NCBI GenBank assembly: GCA_963169045.1
Contig: CAUJDF010000106.1
Span: 1-64,000 of the forward strand
From: Myxococcota bacterium
GTDB lineage: Bacteria > Myxococcota_A > Bradymonadia > UBA7976 > UBA1532
Direction: 5' to 3'
DNA length: 64,000 nt
Part shown: positions 1,608 to 56,530 of the stretch, piece by piece
Position numbering within the stretch: position 1 is the first letter of the stretch
Layout: every line of letters begins with the position of its first letter
Notes under the pieces: model-generated
What the model was told of the DNA's origin: nothing
Database searches by the model: none
Seen by the model: the letters and a program-made list of their open reading frames with translations, nothing else
Translations under genes and position numbers: made by a program

Positions 1608-4282
1608 AGGAAGTTGGGGCGGACCATCCGGCGCTGGATGTTGGTCACCGGCTCCGGTGGGTCGCGCACGACGCGAAAACCGACGTGGAGGCTGGGGACG
1701 CCGCGCGGCACGGGCTCGCGGTGCGTGACGCGGCAGGCGACATCGCTCGTGACGGCGAAGTGGCCGCCCCGCACCACGCGCAGCCCGGGGTCGGCGCCGA
1801 AGGGGCTGTCGCAGACCTCGCCGATCAGGCCGGCCATGTCGTGCACGCCGTAGGGGGACACGTCGGACACGAACGTGCCCACGCGCTCCGGCACCGGGCG
1901 CCCCGGTCGCGACGCGCCCATCTTGCAGAAGGTGGGATCGAAGCGGTTCCCCCACGGGAAGAGGCGCCCGTCGGTGCCGCGCGCCGCCTTCTCCCACTCC
2001 TCTTCGGTGGGCAGGCGCACCGCCTCGCCGGTGCGCTCGGTGTACCACTCGCAGTAGGCCTGGGCGTCGTCGAAGCTGATGCCGAGCACGGGCCAGTAGG
2101 GGTCCCACTCGAAGCCCTCGCTGTCGACCGCGGGCAGCCGGAACTGCCCCGCCGCATCGCGCGCCCACAGGAAACCGCCGTTCACCTTGAGGCGCGGCAC
2201 GCGCGCCATCGCCCACTCGGGCGACTCGCGCGCGATGTCCTGGATGAACGCGAGGTACTCGCCGCACGTGACCGGATAGCGCGAGACGAAGACGTCCTCG
2301 ACCTCGACCACCCGCCGATGGCGCGCCGAGGCGCACGCCTCGTCGCCGCCCATGATGAACGGCCCGCCGGGCACGTAGAGGAAGTACGGCCCGACCTCGT
2401 CTTCGTCGAAGAAGCGACAGGAGACGTCGGTGACCTCGCCGCGCTCCACCCGCACTGGATACAGCACGTCGCGCTGACCGGGGTACGACAGCGAGAGCAA
2501 CCAGGAGCCCTGCGCCAGGGGGATGTTGTTGAGCGGAGTGACGCCGAGGTCTTCGTCCATCAGGGTCGTGAGCTGCTGGTCGACCTCCATGTAGCGCGCG
2601 GCGCTGACGCGCGCACCCGGTGGCTCGGAGCGGATGATGATTCGCCCCTCGCCGCGCAGCTGCTCGTCGAACATCCCGCGGTTGTAGGCGGCGACGAGCC
2701 CCCGGTAGTAGATGATGTCGCCCTCGTCGTCGCGGCCCTCGGCCTCGCGCAGCTTGAACCAGTAAAGACGCGCGAGCTCGTTGCCGGCCTCGTCGTTGTT
2801 CGGATCGAAGCCGATGGCCGACAGGAACGCCTGCGACGCCGCCGCGAAGAGCTGGGCCTCTTCGGCCTCGGCCTCGGCGAGCTCCGCCTGCTTGCGCCAC
2901 AGCGGTCGCTTGTGCTCGACGGGCTCGTGGCCCTGGACCTGCCACTCGAGCTCCATCACCGCGTCGCGCACGGTGGCGACGCTGGCGCGCGCGGCCTTGT
3001 AGCGCTCGCGCAGCTCGATGCCGTCGCGCAGCTTCTCGCGCGAGAGGCGCGCGCGCCGGTCGAGGTCCTCGACGCCGGCGAGGTACCGCTCGAGATCTTC
3101 AATGATCTCGCGGACGTTCGCGTATCGCTCCTCGCGATTCTTGCGCAGGCAGCGCAGGCAGATCTCCTCGAGCGCCGGCGGGATCTCGTTCTGCGGGGCC
3201 CGCTCGCTCGGGAGCGGCACCGGCTGGGTGATGACGGCGAAGAGCGTCTGCCGGAAGTCCTTGCCGCGGAAAGGCGGCGCGTACGTCAGGATCTCGTAGA
3301 GCAGCGCGCCGAGCGCGTACACGTCGGACCGCTGGTCGACCTCGTGCACGTGGCCGCGGGCCTGCTCGGGCGCCATGTAGGCCGGGGTGCCGGTGACCAC
3401 GCCCATCATCGTCGCGTCGTCGCCCGCCGTGCGGATGGTCGCGATGCGCTCGTCCTCGGGCAGCGGCTCGTCGACCGCGCCGAGCACCTTGGCGACGCCC
3501 CAGTCGAGCACCAGCGTCTCGCCGTAGTCGCCGACCATGACGTTGCTGGGCTTGATGTCGCGGTGGATGACGCCCCGACTGTGGGCGAAGCCGATGGCCA
3601 TGCACACCTGCTGGAAGACGTTGAGCAACCGCAGGCGCGTGAATTCCTTGCCGGTGTCGTCGTCTCCCTTGCGCAGGCGCTTGATGATGTCCTTGAGCGT
3701 GCGGCCCTTCACCAGCTTCATGGTGAAGAAGACCTCGCCGCCGCTGAAGAAGCCGAAGTCGTGCACCGGCACGATGTTCGGGTGCTCGAGCTGGCCGGTG
3801 ATCTGCGCTTCTTCCACGAACTTCTTCAGAACGTAGTCGCTGACCTTCGTGCCGTCGATGAGGGTCTTCATGACCAGCGTGCGCATCAGGTCGCGATCAC
3901 GCACGAGGTGGATCTTGCCCACGCCGCCGCGGGCGATCTCCTGGGCGAGCTCGTACTTCTCCGGAGGGGCGCTGTCGCCGCCGGCGTGCGTGGCGCGCAG
4001 CGCCTGAATGCGGGCCACGAGCAGATCGAACCGCTCGGCGGACCCCGCGGAGAGATGCGCATCGTCGGCGTTGATCCAGTTGCCGGAGTCGGTGCCGGAG
4101 AGCGTGCGCTGACCGGTGTCCACCGAGCCGTCGGGCGCGAGCAACATGCCGCGCTCCTGCAACACGCGCAGGATCGCCTCGGTCGTCCCCCCCGCGACGA
4201 GGTGCTCGCACAGGCGCACGAAGAGTGTCGCGTCGATCTCGCCGCGGCGCGCGGTCTGACGGATGTACTCGAGGAGGTCCAT
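1604..4282 (-). CDS. Ser/Thr protein kinase fused to a formylglycine-generating-enzyme-like (SUMF1) domain
   Basis: The protein has 892 aa. After about 108 residues of leader comes a Hanks-type kinase domain (about 109-400): glycine loop ARGGVGKIHLV (117-127), Lys139 in VMKT, catalytic loop HRDIKPSN (240-247) and a DWG triad at 260-262 instead of DFG. A helical linker (about 400-520) follows, then a PEGA-like beta region. The C-terminal 250 residues form a formylglycine-generating-enzyme/sulfatase-modifying-factor fold (VPGGPFIMGGDE, EVFV-RYPVT, LPTEEEWEKAARG, RVVRGGHF). Kinase-FGE fusions are known in Myxococcota; the FGE part there is usually thought to bind ligand or act non-canonically. 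No membrane helix is evident. It is divergent from the TPR membrane gene. Confidence 0.88.
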   Translation of the reverse strand: MDLLEYIRQTARRGEIDATLFVRLCEHLVAGGTTEAILRVLQERGMLLAPDGSVDTGQRTLSGTDSGNWINADDAHLSAGSAERFDLLVARIQALRATHAGGDSAPPEKYELAQEIARGGVGKIHLVRDRDLMRTLVMKTLIDGTKVSDYVLKKFVEEAQITGQLEHPNIVPVHDFGFFSGGEVFFTMKLVKGRTLKDIIKRLRKGDDDTGKEFTRLRLLNVFQQVCMAIGFAHSRGVIHRDIKPSNVMVGDYGETLVLDWGVAKVLGAVDEPLPEDERIATIRTAGDDATMMGVVTGTPAYMAPEQARGHVHEVDQRSDVYALGALLYEILTYAPPFRGKDFRQTLFAVITQPVPLPSERAPQNEIPPALEEICLRCLRKNREERYANVREIIEDLERYLAGVEDLDRRARLSREKLRDGIELRERYKAARASVATVRDAVMELEWQVQGHEPVEHKRPLWRKQAELAEAEAEEAQLFAAASQAFLSAIGFDPNNDEAGNELARLYWFKLREAEGRDDEGDIIYYRGLVAAYNRGMFDEQLRGEGRIIIRSEPPGARVSAARYMEVDQQLTTLMDEDLGVTPLNNIPLAQGSWLLSLSYPGQRDVLYPVRVERGEVTDVSCRFFDEDEVGPYFLYVPGGPFIMGGDEACASARHRRVVEVEDVFVSRYPVTCGEYLAFIQDIARESPEWAMARVPRLKVNGGFLWARDAAGQFRLPAVDSEGFEWDPYWPVLGISFDDAQAYCEWYTERTGEAVRLPTEEEWEKAARGTDGRLFPWGNRFDPTFCKMGASRPGRPVPERVGTFVSDVSPYGVHDMAGLIGEVCDSPFGADPGLRVVRGGHFAVTSDVACRVTHREPVPRGVPSLHVGFRVVRDPPEPVTNIQRRMVRPNFL

Positions 4283-46039: not shown

Positions 46040-47032
46040 TCAGGTCAGCAGGTCCTTGACCATGTCGCGCTCTTCGACGAGCTCGTCGACGCTCTTCTGG
46101 ATGCGCGCCTTCGACTTCGCGTCGAGCTCGACGCCCTGGACGATCTTCCACTGGCCCTCGGCGTCGACCGTCACCGGGAACGAGCAGATGAGGCCCTCGG
46201 GGATGCCGTAGCTGCCGTCGCTCGGCACGGCCATCGAGCGCCACTCGCCCTGGGGCGTCGGGCGGAACCAGTCGCGCATGTGGTCGACGGCGGCGAAGGC
46301 GGCCGAGGCGGCCGAGGACTTGCCGCGCGCGTCGAGGATGGCCTTGCCGCGCTGCTGGACCGTCGTGAGGAACGCGCCCTCGAGCCACGCCGCGTCGGTG
46401 ATGACGTCGGTGACCTTGCGGCCGCCGATCGTGGCGTTCGTGTAGTCGGGGTACATCGTCGGCGAGTGGTTGCCCCACACCGCCAGGCGCTGGATGTCGG
46501 TGGTCTTCGCGCCCGCCTTGATCGCGAGCTGCGCCTTGGCGCGGTTCTCGTCGAGGCGCGTCATGGCGGTGAAGTTGCGGCGCGGGAGGCGCTTCGCCTG
46601 CGACATCGCGATGAGCGCGTTGGTGTTGCAGGGGTTGCCGACCACGAGGACCTTGCAGTCCGGCGCCGCGACGGCGTCGATGCTCTTGCCCTGGCCGATG
46701 AAGATCGGGCCGTTGTCGCGCATGAGGTCGGCGCGCTCCTGGCCCTTCTGACGCGGCTTGCTGCCGACGAGGAAGACGGCGTCGGCGTCGCCGAACGCCT
46801 CGTCGAGCTCGCTCGTGGCCTTGGTGCCGTGCAGCAGCGGGAACGCGCAGTCGAGGATCTCCATCTCGACGCCGCGCAGCGCGTCGAGGGCGATCGGCAG
46901 CTCGAGCATCTGCAGGATCACGGGCTGGTCGGGACCGAACACCTCGCCGGCCGCGATCGAGAACAGCAGGCTGTAGCCGATCTGACCGCCGGCGCCGGTC
47001 ACCGCAACACGAAGGGGCTTCTTCTGGACCAT
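46040..47032 (-). CDS. mdh: Malate dehydrogenase
   Basis: The enzyme interconverts malate and oxaloacetate in the TCA and glyoxylate cycles. 330 aa is the length of the LDH-like type-2 (MDH family) group. The NAD fold is [19 protein letters not shown]; the substrate residues are in [12 protein letters not shown] and [10 protein letters not shown]; and the catalytic His is in [11 protein letters not shown] with NPCNTNALI before it. GGAGGAG precedes ATG 47032. It is followed (in the reading direction) by the acyltransferase stop, with no gap. The glyoxylate genes lie 3.5 kb away. Confidence 0.95.
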
Positions 47033-50443: not shown

Positions 50444-50457
50444 GGGGGGACTTTACT

Positions 50458-50491
50458 CGATTTACAACCTGACGACCACCGATTGACAACC
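50458..50491. promoter_or_regulatory. Direct-repeat operator and promoter of the regulator gene
   Basis: CGATTTACAACC (50458-50469) and CGATTGACAACC (50480-50491) are direct repeats 22 bp apart, two helical turns. On the minus strand they carry a TTGTCA -35 (50489-50484) and TGTAAA -10 (50466-50461) with a 17-bp spacer, 18 nt before the regulator ATG. Binding here could repress the regulator and act on aceB. Confidence 0.55.
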
Positions 50492-50595
50492 GTCGACACC
50501 GTCGACCCCCAGAACACATCGAGCCGTAGATCTCGTGCGACGTCGTGCCGAAAATGGCTGTCAAAGGTCGAGGACGAAGAGAGAGGGGCGCGCGC

Positions 50596-52158
<1,563 letters not shown>

Positions 52159-52186: not shown

Positions 52187-53464
52187 ATGAGCCGTACGCT
52201 GAAGGTCGAACAAGCGCTGACCGCCGAGGTGCCCGCCGGCCGTTGGGACGGGATCGTCCGTCCGTACACCGCCGCGGACGTGAAGCGACTGCAGGGCACG
52301 GTGGTGCCCCGCCACACCTACGCCGAGCTGGGCGCGCAGCGGCTCTGGGAGCTGATGACGACGCGGCCCTACGTCTCGGCGCTCGGCGCGCTCACCGGCG
52401 CCCAGGCGGTGCAGCAGGTCCGCGCCGGCCTCGAGGCCATCTACCTCTCGGGCTGGCAGGTGGCCGCGGACGCCAACAGCTCCGGTCAGATGTACCCCGA
52501 CCAGAGCCTCTATCCCGTCGACAGCGTCCCCCGCCTCGTGCGCCACATCAACCAGTCGCTGGCGCGGCAGGACCAGATCGAGAGCGCCGAGGGCAAGGTG
52601 GGCCGCCACTGGTTCGCGCCCATCCTCGCCGACGCGGAGGCCGGCTTCGGCGGGCCGCTGAACGCGTTCGAGCTGATGAAGGCGATGATCGACGCCGGCG
52701 CGGCGGGCGTGCACTTCGAGGACCAGCTCGCGTCCGAGAAGAAGTGCGGCCACCTCGGCGGCAAGGTGCTCGTGCCGACGAGCCAGTTCATCCGCACGCT
52801 CGTGGCGGCGCGCCTCGCCGCCGACGTCAGCAACGTGCCGACCGTCCTCGTGGCCCGCACCGACGCCGACAGCGCCGCGCTGCTCACGAGCGACGTGGAC
52901 CCGCGCGACCGCGAGTTCTGCACCGGCGAGCGCACGCCCGAGGGCTTCTTCCGCGTGCGCAAGGGCATCGAGGCGGCCATCGCCCGCGCGCTCGCCTACG
53001 CGCCGTACGCCGACGTGCTGTGGTGCGAGACGAGCCACCCGAGCATCGAGGAGGCGAAGCAGTTCGCCGAGGGCGTGCACGCGAAGTTCCCGGGCAAGCT
53101 GCTCGCGTACAACTGCTCGCCCAGCTTCAACTGGAAGAAGCACCTCGACGACCTGACCATCGCGAAGTTCCAGCGGGAGCTCGGCGCGATGGGCTACAAG
53201 TTCCAGTTCGTCACGCTGGCGGGCTTCCACTCGCTCAACGCGGGCATGTACGAGCTCGCGCGCCGCTACCGCGACCACGGCATGAGCGCCTACGCGGACC
53301 TGCAGGAGCACGAGTTCGCGCTCGAGGGCGACGGCTACACCGCGACGCGCCACCAGCGCGAGGTCGGCACCGGCTACTTCGACGCGGTGTCGCAGATCGT
53401 GTCCGGCGGCGCCGCCTCGACGCTCGCCATGGACGGCTCGACCGAGAAGGCCCAGTTCCATTAG
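52187..53464 (+). CDS. aceA: Isocitrate lyase
   Basis: The enzyme splits isocitrate to glyoxylate and succinate. The 425-aa product is of the short prokaryotic type. The signature [10 protein letters not shown] (Cys of KKCGH is the active-site base) is present, with [43 protein letters not shown], and [12 protein letters not shown] with AGFHSLN. GGAGGAGAG precedes ATG 52187. With aceB and mdh it allows growth on acetate or fatty acids. Confidence 0.98.
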
Positions 53465-53473
53465 GACACGCAC

Positions 53474-53509
53474 GGAAGCTCGCCGCCGCAAGTCTGCGGC
53501 TTCGCTTCC
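53474..53509. repeat. REP-like palindromic motif, copy B
   Basis: A 36-nt imperfect hairpin (GGAAGC...GCTTCC outer stem, GCCGCA...TGCGGC inner stem) lies 10 nt after the aceA stop. Positions 53479-53505 are the reverse complement of 31832-31858 at 24 of 27 bases. Being after aceA, it could also act as a terminator. The gap 53465-53670 has no gene. Confidence 0.55.
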
Positions 53510-53670
53510 CTGCCCGCGTGCTCTCGCAGCGGGCGCGTCGAGCCCCCTCCGCTCCGCCCTCCGGCCGCTCGCTCCCCCAAGTCGGTCGCTTCGCCGCGCT
53601 CGCGTCGGGCGACCGGGCGTCCTTGCCCGGGGGGCGACCGCGGGGGGCCGCACCGCATCGGAACCTCGTG

Positions 53671-54213
53671 ATGGAACGCACCTTTCCTCCCGAAGTGCTC
53701 GCGCGCATCGAGGTCCGCGACGCGGACATCACCACGCTCGAGGTCGACGCCATCGTCAACGCGGCGAACCCGACGCTGCTCGGCGGCGGGGGCGTCGACG
53801 GCGCCATCCACCGGGCGGCGGGGCCGGGGCTCCTCGAGGAGTGCCGGCACCTCGGCGGCTGCCACACCGGCGACGCGAAGATCACGGGGGCGCACGAGCT
53901 GCGGGCGCGGTACGTGATCCACGCGGTCGGGCCGGTGTGGCGCGACGGCGAGTCCGGCGAGGCGGCGCTGCTGCAGAGCGCGTACCGGCGCAGCCTCGAG
54001 CTCGCGCGCGACCACGGCGTGCGCTCCATCGCGTTCCCGAGCATCAGCGCCGGCGCCTACGGGTACCCGCTCGACCGGGCCGCGGAGGTGGCGGTGGCGA
54101 CGGTGGGCGCGTTCCTCGCCGAGAACGCGCTGCCCGAGCGCGTGGTCCTCTGCAACGTCTACGACCGCGCCTCGAAGGCGACGCAGGCGGCGGTCGCGCG
54201 CCACCGCGGCTGA
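53671..54213 (+). CDS. Macro-domain protein (O-acetyl-ADP-ribose deacetylase type)
   Basis: The 180-aa protein is a single macro domain of the YmdB/MacroD group: [60 protein letters not shown] and the second loop [15 protein letters not shown]. It removes acetyl from O-acetyl-ADP-ribose or ADP-ribose from acidic residues. ATG 53671 is chosen; the adjacent in-frame GTG at 53668 is an alternative. It stands alone between aceA and the repeat-stalk lipoprotein. Confidence 0.93.
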
Positions 54214-54252
54214 CCTTGCGCCGCACGGCGGCCTGCTGCCATCTTGCGCGCC

Positions 54253-54999
54253 ATGTCCGGCACGATCCTTTCGCGGTGGGGCGCGGCGCTGCTCGTGGTG
54301 GGGCTCTGCGCTGCGTGTGACGACGGCGGTGGCGGCGGCGCGGCCGCGCCCGATGGCGGCTCGCCCGCGCCCGACGGCAGCGCGACCGCCGACGCGCGCG
54401 CGGGCGACGGCGCGACCGCCGACGCGCGCGTGAGCGACGGCTCGACTGCCGACGCGCGCGTGAGCGACGGCTCGCCCGCCGACGCGCGCGTGAGCGACGG
54501 CTCGACCGCCGACGCGCGCGTGAGCGACGGCTCGACCGCCGACGCGCGCGTGAGCGACGGCTCGCCCAGGGCCGACGCCGCCGCCGCCGACGCCGCGACG
54601 CCGGACGCCGCGACGCCGGACGCCGCACCCGACGTCGACGGCGCCGCCCCGTGGCCCGCCGACCGCCCCGCCGGCCAGTGCGCCGTCGCCGCCGACTGCC
54701 CCTCGGGCGACTGCAGCCGCAGCGCCCCGGGCGGGATCTGCCTCGGCGTGCCCTGCCCGCCCGGCACCGAGTCCGGCCCCGGCGGCGGCTGCAACCGCCC
54801 CTGCGGCGACACGTCCGACTGCCCCGTCGGCCTGACCTGCACGGGCCTCGGCCTCTGCGGGCTCGACCGCTGCGCCGCCGACGCCGACTGCGAAGGCCCT
54901 TACGTCTGCGACGGCGGCTTCTGCCGCCGCCCGCCCTGCGACGCCGGCGGCTGCCCCGCGCCCCTGCGGTGCGTCCGCGACCTCTGCGTCGAGCCCTGA
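54253..54999 (+). CDS. Lipoprotein with ten-residue tandem repeats and Cys-rich head
   Basis: The protein has 248 aa. The signal (SGTILSRWGAALLVVGLCAAC) ends in Cys22. Six copies of a ten-residue unit ADARVSDGST make a polar stalk (about 45-105), followed by an Ala/Asp/Pro stretch. The C-terminal ~115 residues are Cys-rich in the same style as the lipoproteins at 13-17 kb (CAVAADCPSGDC, CPVGLTCTGLGLCG). A surface or outer-membrane role is likely; the function is unknown. The stop is 1 nt from that of the convergent ligase gene. Confidence 0.72.
   Translation: MSGTILSRWGAALLVVGLCAACDDGGGGGAAAPDGGSPAPDGSATADARAGDGATADARVSDGSTADARVSDGSPADARVSDGSTADARVSDGSTADARVSDGSPRADAAAADAATPDAATPDAAPDVDGAAPWPADRPAGQCAVAADCPSGDCSRSAPGGICLGVPCPPGTESGPGGGCNRPCGDTSDCPVGLTCTGLGLCGLDRCAADADCEGPYVCDGGFCRRPPCDAGGCPAPLRCVRDLCVEP
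54391..54570 (+). repeat. Six 30-bp in-frame tandem repeats
   Basis: Units start every 30 bp from 54391 (GACGCGCGCGTGAGCGACGG core) and encode ADARVSDGST. The first and last copies are variants. Near-identity between inner copies suggests recent expansion. Confidence 0.9.
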
Positions 55000-55000
55000 C

Positions 55001-56530
55001 TCACGTCCGGAAGAAGCCGCGCACCGTCTCGATCGTGTCCGCCTGCGCCGCGGTCTTGTCTTCGCGATAACGCTTGACGCGCGCGAACCGCAGCGCGAGG
55101 CCGTCAGGGTAGTGCGGGCTGGCCTGCAGGCCGTCGAACGCGATCTCCACGACGAGCTCGGGGCGCACATACACCGTCCCGTCGTCGCGCGCGATCTCGA
55201 GGGCCAGCAGGCGCTCGGTCTGCCACGCCAGCAGCGCGTCCGTCAGGCCCTTGAAGGTCTTGCCGAGCATCACGAAGCCGCCGGTGGCCGGATCGCGCGC
55301 GCCGAGGTGCAGGTTCGACAGCCAGCCGCGCCGCCGCCCGCTCCCCCACTCCGCGGCCAGCACGACGAGGTCCAGCGTGTGCGCCGGCTTCACCTTGAGC
55401 CACGCCGCGCCCCGCCCGCCCGCCTCGTAGGGGGCCGCCAGCGACTTGGCCATGAGGCCCTCGTGGCCGGCGGTCAGCGCCGCCTCGAGGAACGCGCCCG
55501 CGGCGACGGCATCGGCGGTCACCAGGCGCGGCACGACGAGGCCCGCCGGGACGCCGTCGTTCAGCGCGGACACACGCTCCGCGGCGGGCCGGTGCAGCAG
55601 GTCCTCGCCGTCGCGGTGCAGGCAGTCGAAGAAGAACACGGACAACGGGAGGTCGCGGCGCAGCGCCTCCACGTCGAGCCGCCGGCCGAAGCGGCGCATC
55701 GTCGTCTGGAAGGCGTGCGGCGTGCCGTCCGGCCGCAGCGCGATCGTCTCGCCGTCGAGCAGCAGGTCGCGCGCCGGCAGCGCCCGCACCGCCGCCACCA
55801 CCTCGGGCACCGCCGCCGTCACCTCGTTCAGGCGCCGGGAGTAGACGCGCACCTCGTCGCCGGCCTTGTGGACCTGCACGCGCGCCCCGTCCAGCTTGTA
55901 CTCGAGCGCCGCCGTGCCGAGGCGGCCGAGCGCGTCGTCCGGGCCCTCCGCCGTCTGCGCCAGCATCGGTTGCACCGGCCGGAAGAGCTGCAGGCCGAAG
56001 CGCGACAGCCCCGCCGCGCCCTCGCCGAGCGCGGCCGCCGCCACCGTCGCCGCGTCGCCGGCGAGCATCACCGCGCGCCGCACGTCGCCGGCGGGGACGT
56101 CCGCCGCGCGCGCGATCGCCTCGGCCATCACGCCCTCGAGCGCCCCCTGGCGGAGCTCGCCGAGCAGCAGGCGCACGACGAACGCCTGCTCCGCCCGGGT
56201 GCCGCGCGCCAGGAGGCCGCGGAGGCGCCGCCCGCGCTCCGCCTGGGAGCCGGCGCCCGCCAGCGCCGCCAGGTCGGCGAACGCCCCGTCGGCCTCGCGC
56301 ACGCTCAGCGCGCCTTCGCTCGCGGCCGCGTCCGGCACCGCCGCGCGCACCGCGGCGGGGCCGACGCCGATGCGCCCCTGCCACAGGTCCCCGGCGAGCC
56401 ACGGCACGACGATCGCCACCTCGTCGGGCGACAGTCGCCGCAACAGATCCGCCAGCAGCCCGATCTTGTCGAGCCGGCCCGGCACCTCCGCCACCCGCCG
56501 CGACGTCTCCGCGACCTCGGCCAGACGCAT
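55001..56530 (-). CDS. ATP-dependent DNA ligase (archaeal/LigB-type)
   Basis: The 509-aa ligase has an N-terminal helical DNA-binding domain ([35 protein letters not shown]), the adenylation motif [10 protein letters not shown] (nucleophile Lys) at about 218-227, motif [12 protein letters not shown], motif IV FFFDCLH, motif [10 protein letters not shown] followed by WLKVKP, and a C-terminal OB domain ending [18 protein letters not shown]. It resembles euryarchaeal and LigB ligases and lacks the LigD polymerase and nuclease domains, so it is a stand-alone repair ligase beside the usual NAD-dependent LigA. GGAGGTG precedes ATG 56530. Confidence 0.95.

Follow-up and report, generated by a model that had tools for sequence, protein, structure and literature searches.

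Among the described systems closest to the locus studied here, class 2 RamB of Paracoccus denitrificans has a two-box motif, derived from 67 genomes, upstream of aceB; binding was measured, reporter activity was found to require both boxes, and the RamB tetramer was found to give dimers with CoA esters (PMC10370305). A tetrameric state, an Fe-S cluster and CoA ligands have likewise been established for relatives of the regulator considered below (PMC10370305, PMC6765138). Class 1 RamB of the actinobacteria is also a member of the ScfR (short-chain fatty acyl-CoA regulator) family and controls glyoxylate-cycle genes. We found no description of an ScfR operator from the Myxococcota or Acidobacteriota in the open-licence PMC literature.

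The window, by which we mean the whole 64,000-nucleotide stretch that was analysed, is part of contig C106 of a 9.0-Mb genome. It carries a regulator gene that is divergent from aceB-aceA, with a 152-bp intergenic region between the regulator start codon (50443, reverse strand) and the aceB ATG (50596). The regulator consists of an XRE-type helix-turn-helix (HTH), a Peptidase_M78/IrrE-like middle domain and a C-terminal ScfRs domain (PF09856), all three above the Pfam cut-offs, and a family search found it to be the single ScfR protein encoded in its own genome. Solved PrpR structures match it with an E value of 9e-94. Its [4Fe-4S] ligands are C440, C443 and C448 of a C-X2-C-X4-C motif together with the upstream C356; these four cysteines are invariant in all 12 aligned sequences and align with those of PrpR (MtPrpR).

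Several neighbouring genes were also noted. A malate dehydrogenase gene (Ldh_1_N/Ldh_1_C; 46040-47032, reverse strand) lies ~2 kb past the end of the regulator gene, and a matrix scan of the 64 kb found no array of the kind described below in front of it. Directly downstream of aceA, the forward-strand ORF at 52243-54213 includes a stretch (~53500-54213) that, by eye only, resembles a macrodomain protein. It is followed by an ORF (54244-54999, forward strand) with several near-identical tandem STADARVSDG-type units, low in complexity and secreted-looking, and by one on the reverse strand (55001-56530) that by eye looks like an ATP-dependent DNA ligase.

A first-pass annotation of this DNA had drawn attention to two 12-bp direct repeats between the regulator gene and aceB. 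We confirmed that CGATTTACAACC (50458-50469) and CGATTGACAACC (50480-50491) differ at one base, that they start exactly 22 bp apart and that, with the aceB ATG at 50596, the distance of 105 nt to aceB was also correct. Exact CGATTKACAACC occurs three times in the 9.0-Mb genome, on one strand throughout; two of these copies are the repeats, and the third lies on another contig within a coding sequence (L001) whose product resembles, by eye, a lytic transglycosylase. Because the window holds four matches to the 12-mer with at most two mismatches against 3.3 expected, the 12-mer by itself is weak evidence. Of 5,000 dinucleotide shuffles made from the 152-bp region, 117 contained some pair of 12-mers with no more than one mismatch and 7 contained such a pair at a spacing near a multiple of 10.5 bp, so that the pair on its own is only mildly to moderately unusual. 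To this extent, the shuffles favour the idea that the repeats are a chance similarity within a short GC-rich intergenic region.

The repeats are real, but the 12-mer was the wrong cut: what is conserved is a set of four TTKACA hexamers at spacings of 9/22/10, and we discarded the 12-mer as the unit since its flanking CG and CC are unconserved. Two further hexamers in register with the repeat cores, starting at 50452 and 50493, had been missed, and the feature therefore spans 50452-50498 (Table 1). The first description was right but incomplete as an observation and half right as an interpretation.

Table 1. Features of the regulator-aceB region of the window
Feature	Position	Strand	Basis
ScfR-family regulator (HTH_3, Peptidase_M78-like, ScfRs C-terminal domain), 479 aa	49004..50443	-	Pfam/NCBIfam
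Whole array, predicted ScfR/RamB operator, spacing 9/22/10	50452..50498	+	Matrix and model
Hexamer E1, TTTACT, box 1 outer half	50452..50457	+	Held-out weight-matrix match
Hexamer E2, TTTACA, core of first repeat	50461..50466	+	Matrix match
Possible regulator -10, TGTAAA, reverse complement of E2	50461..50466	-	Predicted promoter role
Weak extra hexamer, CTGACG, at E2+8	50469..50474	+	Read from sequence
Hexamer E3, TTGACA, core of second repeat	50483..50488	+	Matrix match
Possible regulator -35, TTGTCA, overlapping E3	50484..50489	-	Predicted promoter role
Hexamer E4, TCGACA, box 2 outer half, least conserved unit	50493..50498	+	Matrix match
Candidate aceB promoter at E3+44: TAGATC (50527-50532), 17 bp, GAAAAT (50550-50555)	50527..50555	+	
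aceB, malate synthase A	50596..52158	+	Pfam/NCBIfam
aceA, isocitrate lyase	52187..53464	+	Pfam/NCBIfam

The strict pattern TTKACWNNNTTKACA is unique in the window, was found in none of 100 shuffles and has one occurrence in the whole 9.0-Mb genome. We also held the window out and used the other 66 ScfR-aceB/aceA intergenic regions to train a matrix of four hexamers with free gaps. The matrix settled on spacings of (9 or 10)/22/(8 to 10) in most of the training regions, and the two best matches across the 64 kb were the present array in two registers. The held-out array scored 33.1, a value reached by none of 10,000 shuffles (mean, -4.1; standard deviation, 4.8; maximum, 21.3). This result, together with conservation across the 66 other intergenic regions, makes chance similarity so improbable as to be nearly negligible. 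The weak CTGACG hexamer lies where relatives have a third conserved unit, TKACA, at about E2+8; conservation was seen there in columns -13 to -9 from E3 in 29 aceB-linked relatives.

The intergenic regions came from a scan of named genomes that gave 80 loci; 76 regions were cut out and 9 near-duplicates were dropped, leaving 67 with the window included. TTKACW hexamers number 217 in these 67 regions when read in the direction of aceB/aceA and 48 when read the other way, whereas shuffles gave 19 and 9. Pairs of TTKACW spaced by 8, 9, 10, 17, 18, 22, 27, 31, 32 or 44 bp were each far more frequent than in the shuffled sequences, and among the longer spacings the sharpest peak was at 22 bp, with 23 cases where 0.0 were expected. 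A matrix score of at least 20 was reached by 61 of the 67 regions in the aceB/aceA direction, by one on the opposite strand and by one in a reversed control, although the count of 61 is not independent for the 66 regions that were in training. The weak members were L012 (11.3), L107 (10.8), L094 (14.7), L128 (15.4), L134 (15.9) and L013 (18.2), and at E3 the 9/22/10 model is a poor fit to arrays of the Sorangium type. At ten of the 80 loci no ace gene was recognised next to the regulator; these ten were left out of training and scanned separately, and in three of them (L071, L087 and L090), no array was found upstream of the regulator.

We then compared the regions upstream of aceB in relatives. 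The search covered 57 genomes, including the window's own, of which 12, again with its own, carry a full-length regulator. In 10 of the 11 relatives aceB is divergent from and adjacent to the regulator gene, the exception being G041. The 12 regions upstream of aceB from genomes with an ScfR scored between 10.8 and 43.7, and 13 from genomes lacking one scored between -5.7 and 6.7. Ten of the 12 had contributed to training, either themselves or through a named duplicate, which leaves the window (33.1) and G041 (30.7) as clean tests. Two genomes, G012 (L012; 11.3) and G006 (L007; 10.8), have the full regulator and an adjacent aceB and yet a degenerate array; the site may have been lost or have drifted there, or may be arranged differently.

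G041 is a natural separation of the operator from the regulator gene. In this genome (L166, G041:C1:4379500-4392000), the regulator occupies 835-2271 and aceB starts at ~10040, ~8 kb away; the array sits before aceB, and none was found at the regulator. The array is thus conserved, tracks the presence of the regulator and stays with aceB, and the earlier proposal that the repeats are a site for the neighbouring XRE/ScfR protein is most likely correct.

A second model, R1, was built without the window from 31 sites, chosen out of 34 for their score and spacing. In the window's own genome it found a single match, at the present array (E value, 0.002). Across the 57 genomes it gave seven matches at E values of at most 0.1, six of them directly upstream of aceB, although two of these six (G034 and G054) are sites already in the model. 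The seventh (E value, 0.065) is in G003, a genome in which no ScfR was found, and is probably due to chance. At this threshold R1 recovered just 6 of the 12 ScfR-carrying genomes. Class-wide R1 and family searches of the 57 genomes placed an ScfR above the cut-off in 12 and gave no further operators. A wider regulon in the window's own genome was considered and set aside, as neither the strict pattern nor R1 at E values of up to 10 gave a second site; weak sites could escape such searches.

The repeats had also been said to cover the -35 and -10 of the regulator promoter. Such elements can indeed be read on the reverse strand (TTGTCA, 50489-50484; 17 bp; TGTAAA, 50466-50461), but a consensus scan returned none at its threshold, and we consider a regulator promoter overlapping the repeats plausible. 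If the repeats were merely this promoter, their likeness and their 22-bp spacing would be nothing other than the geometry of a sigma factor, an idea that gains from the spacer of exactly 17 bp and from the prominence of the 22-bp spacing among the intergenic regions. It leaves unexplained, however, both E1 and E4 and the fact that aceB is not preceded by the array in genomes lacking an ScfR. Moreover, the prp-linked regulators of Variovorax, Thioclava and Azospira keep the 9- and 22-bp spacings with TTYGCA hexamers, the reverse of which is not -10-like, and the G041 array, which is found with aceB and not at the regulator, argues against a mere regulator promoter. On these grounds we rejected a plain promoter, which we regard as very unlikely.

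On the aceB side, TTGAY is found at E3+44 or E3+45 in 32 of 43 sites and is likely to be the -35 element of aceB/aceA. The candidate aceB promoter in the window is degenerate and was missed by the consensus scan. The fixed distance from the array to the aceB -35 bears on a further possibility, namely, that the operator is real but serves mainly for autorepression of the regulator, with aceB regulated elsewhere or unregulated. An operator of that sort would be well placed here, since the array overlaps the possible regulator promoter and lies 9 bp from the start codon of the regulator gene. Against it, besides that fixed distance, stand the retention of the array at aceB in G041, where the regulator gene is elsewhere, and the equivalent P. 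denitrificans site, through which activation was shown (PMC10370305). Autorepression as the main role is therefore most improbable.

Taken together, these results suggest that 50452-50498 is very probably an ScfR operator of the class 2 RamB build that would activate aceB-aceA and probably also repress the regulator gene itself. Each of its two boxes would be a pair of TTKACA hexamers 9 to 10 bp apart, with the boxes about three helical turns from each other, so that a regulator tetramer, or two dimers, could bind both on one face of the DNA. Bound regulator would activate aceB-aceA from a promoter whose -35 is located 44 bp past E3. It would probably also cover its own promoter, autorepression being proposed because the reverse reading of E3 and E2 offers a possible -35 and -10. 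By analogy with P. denitrificans RamB and M. tuberculosis PrpR, an acyl-CoA or CoA beside the [4Fe-4S] cluster may be what switches the regulator, and the four-part site is probably used by a coenzyme-A-sensing protein to switch on genes for growth on acetate. In this way the repeats become part of a complete predicted operator that has defined hexamers, spacing and promoter distance and is conserved in both Myxococcota and Acidobacteriota. The prediction that follows is that a coenzyme-A-sensing Fe-S regulator switches acetate assimilation in both groups.

Comparison of the regulators brought out a hypothesis on specificity that is simple, open to test and applicable to the whole ScfR family. 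ScfRs across phyla may share a four-hexamer geometry of ~9/22/9-10, in which proteins with Leu in the recognition helix (SxSYLNLIE) read TTKACA and those with Gln (SxSYLNQLE) read TTYGCA, a generalization to which we give an even chance. Position 4 of the hexamer (A or G) seems to follow this one residue, a relation that is possibly new. The residue presumably matches a base-contacting residue of the phage 434 repressor. The window regulator, with Leu38, is of the first kind, and Leu is likewise found in all 67 ace-linked rows of the Myxococcota/Acidobacteriota set and in all 10 of its remaining rows. We called hexamers at 25 plasmid loci as A- or G-type by a z-difference rule. All eight Leu proteins had A-type sites, although these plasmid rows are not independent, as four of the eight are from Paracoccus. 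Of 16 Gln proteins, 9 had G-type sites, 3 had A-type sites (L168, L156 and L167, all weak and none with z above 2.6) and 4 were assigned to neither type, as was the sole His protein. The idea had been formed on 13 of the 25 loci; among the 12 fetched later, Leu proteins were A-type in four of four cases, Gln proteins were G-type in two of seven, A-type in two and unassigned in three, and the one His protein was unassigned. An aceA-linked homologue from Streptomyces combines TTYGCA-type sites with a recognition-helix Gln, so that in this case the rule follows the residue and not the target gene. The pattern is a correlation among related rows. If it is true, the protein sequence could be used to predict sites and regulons, and exchanging Leu and Gln at this one position should alter specificity.

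Two of the plasmid loci deserve separate mention. In Sphingobium herbicidovorans (L176), an aceA-linked ScfR with its regulator gene at 1977 has His at the Leu/Gln position and hexamers of indistinct type, possibly a third specificity. On Methylocella tundrae plasmid 2 (L173), the annotation divides the pcc-linked ScfR (1980-3409) into two consecutive coding sequences, one for the HTH part and one for the sensor part, as for a split or frameshifted regulator.

The annotation had not recognised the repeat as a known RamB/ScfR site, and it is indeed not the class 1 RamB/PrpR box TTTGCAAA: that box is absent from the window's intergenic region and present in only 1 of the 67. The window regulator scored 447.8 bits against the NCBIfam RamB equivalog NF038139 (class 1, C. 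glutamicum type), below the cut-off of 700. PrpR of Mycobacterium tuberculosis has the same domain order and Fe-S cysteines as the window regulator, and its two palindromes are spaced by 9 bp (8 bp plus 1 bp), the spacing found here within a box; its hexamer, however, is of the TTTGCA type and not TTKACA, and it controls prpDC and icl1 (PMC3420887, PMC6765138). The PccR/MccR type, which comprises propionyl-CoA regulators, has TTYGCA hexamers and a recognition-helix Gln in place of Leu, and annotated plasmid pcc- and prp-linked ScfR genes share the 8-10/22 geometry in several cases.

The suggestion that the repeats might define a new operator did not hold, since P. denitrificans class 2 RamB already has a two-box operator of this architecture (PMC10370305). 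RamB of strain Pd1222 (Pden_1365) is an ScfR-family protein encoded in the same divergent regulator-aceB-aceA arrangement, and its operator likewise has two boxes upstream of aceB, with TKACA-type hexamers 9 bp apart in each (PMC10370305). Read from the printed oligonucleotides, the site has two hexamers per box at spacings of 9/23/9, so that the E2-E3 distance is 23 bp there and 22 bp in the window; the hexamers are GTGACA/CTTACA/ATGACA/CTGACT there and TTTACT/TTTACA/TTGACA/TCGACA here, and the P. denitrificans ligand is beta-methylmalyl-CoA (PMC10370305). The tested P. denitrificans fragment scored 18.0 with our matrix (a value reached by 3 of 10,000 shuffles), and the double mutant published in PMC10370305 scored -21.5. 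All three annotated Paracoccus aceB-linked regions scored fell between 12.5 and 19.3, and an Azospirillum aceA-linked region reached 28.8. In a 90-row tree, made by a quick method and arbitrarily rooted, the window regulator grouped with other Myxococcota/Acidobacteriota rows and the Azospirillum aceA-linked protein, and the Paracoccus aceB-linked plasmid homologues stood apart on a long branch. At the level of genes and site, the locus has the features of class 2 RamB, a regulator divergent from aceB-aceA and two near-identical boxes at P. denitrificans-like spacing. Given the shared build and the matrix score of the P. denitrificans site, the operator in the window appears to be of a known kind in another lineage.
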